37,550 nt of DNA from an uncultured Verrucomicrobiales bacterium (GTDB taxonomy: Bacteria > Verrucomicrobiota > Verrucomicrobiia > Limisphaerales > UBA1100). Location: positions 1-37,550 of the forward strand of contig CAJWVY010000011.1 in assembly GCA_913048135.1 (NCBI GenBank). Reading direction: 5' to 3'. Shown piece by piece: positions 14,530 through 18,502 of the stretch; position 1 is the stretch's first letter; every line of letters begins with the position of its first letter. The translations under genes were made by a program, and so were the position numbers. Under the pieces are notes generated by a model. It was given only the letters and a program-made list of their open reading frames with translations. It had not been told where the DNA came from and did no database searches.

Positions 14530-15591
14530 CTACCAACTTAAAGCGGATGCGGTCTGGTATTCGGTGACGCGCGTCTCGAAGAAGTTTTTCTCCTTGGCCA
14601 GATCGATGGTCTCGCTCATCCACGGGAAGGGATTGTCCGAGCCGTACTTGGTGCCCAAGCCGATGCGCTCGAGGCGGCGGTCGGCGATGTGTTGCACGTA
14701 TTCGCGGAAGAGACCAGCGTTGAGGCCGAGGATGCCACGCGGCAGGCAGTCCTGCGCGTAGGCAATCTCCAGCTCCACGGCTTCCTCGATGAGCCCGTCG
14801 ATTTCCTTCTGGAACTCAGGCGTCCAAGCCTCGGGATTCTCGGCCTTGATGCCGTTGATGAGGTCGAGGCCGAAGTTCATGTGGATGGATTCATCGCGCA
14901 TGATGTACTGGAACTGTTCGCCAATCCCGGTCATGCGGTTACCGCGATGGAAGGACAGGATCATCACGAAGCCTGAGTAGAAGAAAATGCCTTCCATGAT
15001 CACGTAGAACCCGATGAGGTTCTTGAGGAAGGTCTGAACCCCCTCAGTGGTGTCGGTGTTGAAGCCTTCCTGCATGATGTCGCTAGTGAGCTTCATTTCG
15101 AAGTTATCCTTATCGCTGATGGAATTCACCTCGTGATACATGTTGAATATCTCACGTTCATCAAGGCTGAGTGATTCGCAGATGTAATGGAAGGTGTGCG
15201 TGTGAATGGCTTCCTCAAAGGCCTGGCGCAGCAGGTACTGGCGGCACTCGGGGTTGGTCACGTGTTTGAAGATGGCGAGCACGATATTGTTGCCCACGAG
15301 GCTCTCAGCGGTGCTGAAGAAGCCGAGGTTGCGCATGATCACGCGACGCTCGTCGGCGGTAAGCTTGTTGGATTTCCATAGCTCAATATCCTTCTGCATC
15401 GGCACCTCGTCGGGCATCCAATGGTTTTTGCAGCCGTTGAGATAATGTTCCCAAGCCCAGTCATACTTGATGGGCATGAGCTGGTTGACATCCACGGCTT
15501 TACAGTTAATGAGCCGTTTGTCTTCCACGTTGATGCGCTTGGTGAGGTCATGGGCCTCCGGGCGCTGGTCGCTAACATTGCAACAAGACAT
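14530..15591 (-). CDS. nrdB: Ribonucleotide reductase small subunit, class Ic type (no radical tyrosine)
   Basis: 353 residues, start ATG 15591 with the strong ribosome site AAGGAGG 8 bases upstream. R2 carries the dimetal cofactor that starts the radical for NrdA. Candidate metal ligands are E96, E127, H130, E200, E234 and H237. The place of the radical tyrosine (E. coli Y122) is F134 in [17 protein letters not shown]. Every one of these positions is offset by +7 from Chlamydia trachomatis R2 (E89, E120, H123, F127, E193, E227, H230), the type enzyme of class Ic, which uses Mn(IV)/Fe(III) instead of a tyrosyl radical. The first ligand is Glu, as in class Ic, not Asp. The C-terminal tail ends in Tyr and Trp residues, as needed for docking to NrdA. 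It is in an operon with nrdA, 37 bases upstream. Confidence 0.96.
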
Positions 15592-15628: not shown

Positions 15629-18502
15629 TTACTGGCAGGCTTCGCACTCCGGGTCGAGGATACTGCAGGCCTTCGGCGCCTCGGCCACAGGGGCCACTTC
15701 GCTGGAGGCAGATTTGCTCTTCATCCACTTAGGCTGCACGCCGTAGCTGTTGATGTTCACGGTCGATTTCTCGATCTGCGTGGCAGCCAACGTGCGCAGG
15801 TAGTAGGTGGTTTTCAGCCCCGCTTCCCAGGCGAAGAAGTACATGTCACTCAGGACTCGACCGGTCTTCTGGCCTTCGGGCACCTGATTGATGTCAAAGT
15901 ATAGGTTCAGGGATTGGCCCATATCGATCCACTTTTGGCGACGGGCCGCGCAGGCGATCAGCCATTTGGAATCAATCTCGAATGAGGTTCGGAATACATC
16001 CTTCAGATCATCGGGCACCCGGTCGATCTCAAGTACCGAACCGTCGTGGTACTTGAGGTCCTGCACCATCTCGTCATCCCACAAGCCGCGTTCCTTGAGC
16101 TGGGTCACGAGGTACTCGTTGACCACGATGAAATCTCCGGAAAGATTCGCCTTGGCGTAGAGGTTCTTGTAGGTCGGCTCGATGGATTGGCTCACGCCGA
16201 TGATGTTGGCGATGGTTGCGGTGGGCGCAATGGCCATGGTGTTGCTATTGCGCACGCCGTGTTTGGCGATGGATTCGCGCACAGGCGCCCAGTCCATCTG
16301 CGAGCTGCGATCCAGCGTGAGATGCCCGCCACGCTCCTGTTCCAGCAGGTCGATGGTATCAATCGGCAGCAGGCCGCGATCCCATTTGGATCCCTCGTAG
16401 GTCTGGTAGGCGCCGCGCTCGGCCGCCAATTCGCTGGAGGCGAGGATGGCGTAGTAGGAGATCATCTCCATGCTGTGATCGGCAAACTCCACGGCTTCCT
16501 GGCTGGCGTAGGAAATGCGCAGTTGATAAAGCGCATCCTGAAAGGCCATCACGCCCATGCCCACCGGGCGATGCTGCATGTTCGCGTTGCGTGCCTCAGG
16601 TGTAGGGTAGTAGTTGATGTCGATCACATTGTCCAACATCCGGACAGCGGTACGGACGGTCTGGGCGATGAGTTCCTGATTGAGCGCGCCATCCTTAAGG
16701 TGGGCGGTGAGGTTCACGGAGCCGAGGTTGCACACGGCGGTTTCCTCGGCGCTGGTGTTGAGGAGAATCTCGGTGCAGAGATTGGAGCTGTGCACCACGC
16801 CCGTGTGATCCTGCGGCGAGCGGACATTGGAAGGATCCTTGAAAGTGATCCACGGATGGCCCGTCTCGAAGAGGCTCATCAGTATCTTGCGCCAGAGATC
16901 CTCGGCTTCCACAGTCTTGAAGAGCTTAATCTCGCCCGCTTCGGCCATGGTCTCGTATTCCTCGTAGCGTTTCTCGAACGCCGCGCCGTAGAGATCGTGC
17001 AGATCCTCCACATCGCTCGGACTGAAGAGGGTCCACTTACCCTTCTCCTTCACACGCTTCATGAATAGGTCCGGTATCCAATTGGCGGTATTCATGTCGT
17101 GCGTGCGGCGGCGTTCGTCACCGGTGTTCTTGCGCAGCTCCATGAAGTCCTCGATATCGAGGTGCCACGTTTCGAGATACGCGCACATGGCGCCTTTGCG
17201 TTTGCCGCCCTGATTCACGGCCACCGCAGTATCATTGGCCACCTTTAGGAACGGAATGACGCCCTGGCTTTCGCCGTTGGTGCCCTTGATATGCGATCCA
17301 GTGGCGCGAACATTGGTCCAGTCATTGCCCAAACCGCCGGCCCATTTGGACAAGCGCGCGTCATCGGCCACCAGCTTGAAGATACTCTCGAGATCGTCAT
17401 CCACCGTGCTCAGGTAGCAGGAGGAAAGCTGCGGATGCAGCGTGCCTGCGTTGAAGAGCGTGGGCGTAGAGGACATAAACCGAAAAGAGCTGAGCGCATT
17501 GTAAAACTCAATCGCACGCTCCTCCTTGTTGGCTTCATTAGCCGCCAAGCCCATGGACACGCGCATGTAGAAATACTGCGGTGTCTCAATGCGGGTGCCG
17601 CCGATGTGAATGAGGTAGCGATCGTAAATCGTCTGGATTCCCATGTAGGCAAACTGCTGATCCCGCTCCAGATCGAGGGCGTCGGCCAGTTGATCGAGGT
17701 CGAACTTCAACAGATCCGGCGACAGACGCTCGGCGGCCACACCCTGCTGCAGGTACTCGCGGAAATGTTCGCGGTGCACCTTGGGCAACTCGGCCGGTGC
17801 ACCGAACTTCGGCAGCACTTCCTCATAAATCTGATTCAGTAAAAGCCGCGCGGCCACATAGGTGTAGGCCGGCTCATTCTCAATCCGAGCTTTAGCAGAC
17901 ATGATCATCGCCTTGTCTACCTCGGTGGTAGTCACACCGTCGTAGAGGTTGCGCATGGTCTCATCGAAGAGATCATTGGCCTGGCACTTGTCCTCCACGC
18001 CGCGGCAGGCGCCATAGATATCACGCTTGAGCCGACCGGGATCGAGCACCTCCTGTCCGCCGTCCGGCAGGGTGATGAACATCTGCTCCTGCGGCTGGCC
18101 GTCCACCGTGCGATCCCCGCGAATGGCGCGCGCCTTGCGACGTTCTTCGCGGTAGACAATGTAACGCCGTGCTGCACCGCGGAAGCCCATCTCCATGAGC
18201 TTGTCCTCCACCGTGTCCTGAATGCGTTCGATCTCGATGGGCGCTTCGTCAGTGGCGCGACTGAGACTTTTTTCCACCACCGCCTGCGTGAGGCGTTGGG
18301 CGTCGGCCTGCATGGTTTCGTTGGCCGGCGTGTCCTGGTCGAGTTCCGCGTCGGCCTTCAAGGCCGCCTCGATGGCGAGATAAATTCGCGTTTCATCAAA
18401 GTCGATGATGTTCCCGTTTCGTTTCCGAACTTGGAACTGTTTGCCTTCGAGGGGGTCCAAGGTGGCCATCCGCAATTGGCCATCGAGCTGCTCATTAATC
18501 AT
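15629..18502 (-). CDS. nrdA: Ribonucleoside-diphosphate reductase large subunit
   Basis: 957 residues from ATG 18502, preceded by GGAGAAAG; the longer ORF start has no support. The enzyme reduces NDPs to dNDPs. The N-terminal about 100 residues form an ATP-cone ([22 protein letters not shown] to [14 protein letters not shown]), the dATP feedback site. The RNR N-terminal helical domain follows, then the ten-stranded barrel: redox cysteine in [14 protein letters not shown], catalytic SSNLCTEI (Asn, thiyl Cys, Glu), second redox cysteine in [10 protein letters not shown], and the radical-transfer region near [19 protein letters not shown]. The C-terminal tail ends CEACQ, the shuttle dithiol. It is the first gene of nrdA-nrdB; the 670-base upstream region holds candidate regulatory sites. 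Confidence 0.97.

Follow-up and report, generated by a model that had tools for sequence, protein, structure and literature searches.

We showed that the window (the whole 37,550-nucleotide stretch of DNA analysed here, from an uncultured Verrucomicrobiales bacterium) contains an nrdB gene whose product is, as judged from its residues, the R2 subunit of a class Ic ribonucleotide reductase (RNR). We hold with high confidence that the enzyme is an ordinary class Ic RNR, in which a Mn/Fe cluster would replace the tyrosyl radical, and which is probably the sole RNR of the cell. The extent and class that the original prediction had given for this gene, as well as its linkage to nrdA, were borne out (Table 1); the coding strand is the minus strand, and the plus-strand reading of the same interval is interrupted by stops.

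Table 1. Features of the nrdA-nrdB-dcd cluster in the window
Feature	Position	Strand	Basis
nrdA, class I large (alpha) subunit, 957 aa	15629..18502	minus	37 bp upstream of nrdB; two ATP-cone matches; catalytic residues
nrdB, class Ic R2 (beta) subunit, 353 aa	14530..15591	minus	ORF and translation; PF00268; NF005550; alignment with CtR2 1SYY
GAG codon of E96, the first metal ligand (class Ia/Ib R2s have Asp)	15304..15306	minus	Glu invariant in 80 named relatives
TTC codon for F134, at the radical-tyrosine position	15190..15192	minus	E. coli NrdB and Pseudomonas-type family members have Tyr here
dcd, dCTP deaminase, 189 aa	13832..14401	minus	128 bp downstream of nrdB; PF22769, 127 bits

The product of nrdB matched the profile PF00268 with 310 bits and the NCBIfam equivalog NF005550 with 630 bits (cut-off 309). 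In a comparison with the PDB, its best solved relatives were the R2 entries of Chlamydia trachomatis (CtR2; 1SYY, 4D8F and others), and the alignment with 1SYY ran without a gap over 337 residues, of which 248 (73.6%) were identical. Together with the invariance of the residue set in the 80 closest named relatives, these scores exclude a chance resemblance.

The translated protein carries E96, E127, H130, F134, Y136, E200, E234 and H237, i.e. the full E/E/H/E/E/H ligand set with Glu as the first ligand and a non-tyrosine residue (Phe) at the radical-tyrosine position. Since the alignment with 1SYY is ungapped, each of the ligands, as well as F134, lies exactly seven positions beyond its counterpart in CtR2, as had been predicted; F134 is aligned with F127 and Y136 with Y129. 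The two residues typical of class Ia R2s, an Asp as the first ligand and a radical Tyr, are both absent from the window NrdB, which has E96 and F134 in their place. The C-terminal Tyr and the radical-transfer residues are present, with W51, Y222, D226 and Y338 of CtR2 corresponding to W58, Y229, D233 and Y345; in CtR2 these residues form the radical relay.

The Tyr found two residues from F134 deserves attention, because a class Ia-like enzyme might use a diiron cluster to generate a radical on Y136 instead of Y122, and Y136 is conserved across the Glu/Phe set. We consider this very improbable. No shift of the alignment can bring Y136 into the position of Y122, since E. coli NrdB, included in the same alignment, has D at column 96 and Y at column 134. 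CtR2 has a matching Tyr (Y129, at the ungapped position), yet is a metal-centred class Ic enzyme (PMC8463856), and the window NrdB shares the Glu first ligand of class Ic (PMC4118035). Moreover, the Asp/Tyr (class Ia) members of the family carry Tyr at both 134 and 136, which identifies Y136 as a family residue found beside the radical Tyr rather than a replacement for it.

An all-Glu ligand set, the lack of a radical Tyr and a Mn/Fe cluster are also features of the R2-like ligand-binding oxidases (R2lox), which are not ribonucleotide reductases (PMC4118035, PMC3824934). That the window NrdB belongs to this group is the least probable of the readings considered, and we regard it as negligible: the R2lox models, whose cut-offs are 194 bits or more, gave no more than 57 bits (compared with 630 for NF005550), and the C-terminal Tyr, which R2lox proteins lack (PMC3824934), is present as Y345. 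The adjoining nrdA also argues against an oxidase. Its product retains the residues that are catalytic in E. coli (C225, N437, C439, E441, C462, Y730 and Y731) as well as the C-terminal Cys pair, and thus provides a class I large-subunit partner with conserved catalytic Cys residues.

The order of the cluster is nrdA-nrdB-dcd, with nrdA starting at an ATG at position 18502, preceded by GGAGAAAG; no NrdR box was found in the window. Synteny analysis placed dcd beside nrdB in 15 named Verrucomicrobiota loci and did not find it there in any examined locus of the Planctomycetota, Latescibacterota or Chlamydiota. In most loci with sufficient upstream DNA, nrdA precedes nrdB.

We infer the metal identity, activity, radical path and essentiality of the window RNR, and the Mn/Fe metallation of its NrdB is predicted from homology. 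Mn(II) and Fe(II) would bind the two sites built from E96, E127, H130, E200, E234 and H237, with Mn occupying site 1, beside the radical-tyrosine position. Oxidation of the metals by O2 or peroxide, via a Mn(IV)/Fe(IV) state, would yield a stable Mn(IV)/Fe(III) cluster that takes over the role of the tyrosyl radical. In each turnover, W58 or Y229, followed by Y345, would pass the hole on to Y901/Y900 and C576 in NrdA, the subunit that reduces ribonucleotides. The structure of the Mn/Fe form of CtR2 has been solved (PMC8463856); up to 2014, Mn/Fe had not been demonstrated in vivo for any R2c (PMC4118035). A tyrosine-free R2 might instead operate with a homodinuclear centre, e.g. Mn2 as in class Id, and the identity of the metals is not readable from sequence alone (PMC4118035). 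There is little to recommend this for the window enzyme, however, given that the nearest protein of known structure, with 74% identity, reaches high activity only when loaded with Mn/Fe (PMC4118035).

The source genome measures 2.94 Mb, is 95.5% complete and includes the window as contig 11. A search of this genome for a second RNR, proposed as a check in the original prediction, revealed none: the only R2 found is the window NrdB, the only class I/II large subunit found is the window NrdA, and NrdD was not found in this 95.5% complete assembly. A second enzyme could lie in the missing part. Based on these gene counts, the class Ic enzyme is probably the only RNR of the cell, which would make dNTP synthesis dependent on O2 and probably on manganese. 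The host is probably free-living and marine, as its nearest relatives (97-98% at the protein level) are Verrucomicrobiota metagenome-assembled genomes (MAGs) or single cells, several of them with marine-style names.

A possible manganese importer is encoded by an operon of contig 15, comprising genes for a TroA-like binding protein, a porin, an ABC ATPase and two permeases, one of which is fused to a metal-binding domain of the DtxR/MntR type. The best PDB match of the binding protein was TroA (229 bits), and its scores for the NCBIfam zinc and manganese binding proteins were both under the cut-off; the system could import zinc instead. The fusion of a permease with a DtxR/MntR-type metal-binding domain (L183 4565-6064, G000:C15), within a TroABCD-like operon that includes an OprB-type porin, is noted as a side observation. 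Three proteins of the Nramp family (L083, L084 and L085) were also identified in this genome. Their first helices contain GPGS, GSGE and GGGS and not the canonical DPGN, so they were dropped as evidence of manganese supply, and a normal MntH was not found.

The complete residue set was kept in all 80 of the closest named relatives, one of which has an unread base at Y136. Their record titles, which for MAGs may reflect binning errors, assign them to the Verrucomicrobiota, Planctomycetota, Latescibacterota, Actinomycetota (including a Rubrobacter MAG), Bdellovibrionota, Hydrogenedentota, Gemmatimonadota and Chlamydiota. Plasmid-borne R2s of Phyllobacterium and Methylocella are likewise Glu/Phe in the alignment. 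Using a DNA pattern for Glu/Phe that was checked on 83 loci, we detected such genes in 11 of 78 genomes of the window's order (any R2 in 16) and, in a sample of the phylum, in 9 of 155 Verrucomicrobiota genomes (any R2 in 46). When the R2 sequences of all 46 were read, 9 genomes proved to be Glu/Phe, 26 Glu/Leu and 11 Asp/Tyr; a tyrosine-less R2 is therefore encoded by 35 of the 46 R2-bearing genomes among the 155 sampled. One Glu/Leu genome also encodes an Asp/Tyr R2. Mixed pairs (Asp with Phe or Leu, or Glu with Tyr, at 96/134) were never seen in the complete sequences read.

Some individual loci are worth recording. A tandem second copy of a Glu/Leu R2 in a 609-aa open frame (L155, G116 C11:44554-45426) keeps the metal ligands, but Asn replaces the relay residue Y229; it is possibly a specialised or inactive paralogue. 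The Pseudomonas phage vB_PpuM-Lauda (L088) carries nrdAB with an Asp/Tyr R2, and a separate upstream gene matches the N-terminal third of R2 with 33% identity. The top phage-labelled match, recorded as Acinetobacter phage MD-2021a (CAKLQH020000007.1), was rejected as a phage, since it appears to be bacterial chromosomal DNA, with chromosomal-type genes around nrdAB.

The R2 tree was computed with the two trait columns (96 and 134) removed. The Glu/Leu sequences formed one side of a branch (100/100). With the tree rooted on them, the proteobacterial-type Asp/Tyr sequences sat among the Glu/Phe ones (92/89), and the alphaproteobacterial Glu/Phe pair sat among the Asp/Tyr ones (88/75). The window NrdB clustered with other Verrucomicrobiota (99/86), and chlamydial sequences branched at several nearby points. 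The Asp/Tyr enzymes fall in the same NCBIfam family (NF005550) as the Glu/Phe ones and may be nested among them. AU tests rejected neither a single Glu/Phe clade (the two alphaproteobacterial sequences excluded) nor a single Asp/Tyr clade (p 0.39 and 0.40), and for this reason a regain of Tyr is not claimed. We raise only as a speculative scenario, more doubtful than probable, that Asp/Tyr and Glu/Phe-or-Leu were exchanged, both positions together, on more than one occasion within one family, and that the Pseudomonas-type tyrosyl enzyme arose from a tyrosine-free Mn/Fe ancestor. If this were true, the Verrucomicrobiota would comprise two R2 lineages that lack the tyrosine (Glu/Phe and Glu/Leu), and metal-centred R2s would be the rule among their class I enzymes.

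The original prediction had also suggested that class Ic is not a parasite-specific adaptation. This is correct, but was already known (PMC3824934, PMC4118035). Haloarchaeal class Ic R2s were listed in 2013 (PMC3824934), and the tyrosine-less R2s, with Glu as first ligand, numbered about 50 by 2010 and more than 150 by 2014, mainly from extremophiles and pathogens (PMC4118035). According to PMC3824934, R2c proteins with Leu, Ile or Val in place of the Tyr were already on record (citing Hogbom 2010), and R2c is polyphyletic (citing Lundin et al. 2010), which contrasts with the description of the tyrosine-less NrdB as a tight cluster (PMC4390871). A reconstruction of the last common ancestor of the chlamydiae included class Ic (PMC9816063). 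Our literature search, with most subscription papers outside its scope, found no paper describing a class Ic R2 in free-living Verrucomicrobiota; the window case is a known enzyme type in a further lineage. Two results go beyond the original prediction: the paired states at positions 96 and 134, and the prevalence of tyrosine-less R2s, with a separate Glu/Leu clade, among the R2-bearing Verrucomicrobiota genomes sampled. The Chlamydia-type Mn/Fe reductase would be a normal aerobic dNTP enzyme of probably free-living members of the PVC group and of other bacteria, which weakens the view that class Ic evolved to withstand nitric oxide from the host (PMC4390871). The linked change at 96/134 within one family also offers closely related natural pairs for studying how a metal-centred radical can take the place of a tyrosyl one.

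To conclude, the window NrdB most resembles the class Ic R2 of C. trachomatis (1SYY, 4M1I), with which it shares 74% identity, an ungapped alignment, all six ligands, the Phe that replaces the radical Tyr and the relay residues; nrdA adjoins nrdB in chlamydial relatives too. It differs in its host (a probably free-living member of the Verrucomicrobiota) and in the dcd gene that follows nrdB. In the alignment, the R2 of PDB entry 6Y2N, presumably from Saccharopolyspora erythraea, likewise begins its ligand set with Glu and has Phe where the radical Tyr would be, but it is more distant from the window NrdB than the chlamydial protein is (489 bits). The NF005550-like NrdB of the Pseudomonas aeruginosa type is about 60% identical, has no indel near the metal site and falls in the same clade; unlike the window NrdB, it has an Asp first ligand and the radical Tyr, which by residue set makes it class Ia. 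The Glu/Leu R2s of other Verrucomicrobiota (L134-L159) share the Glu first ligand, the absence of a radical Tyr and the relay residues, and the two members tested exceeded the NF005550 cut-off, whereas they carry Leu in place of Phe, are only about 42% identical and form a separate clade.
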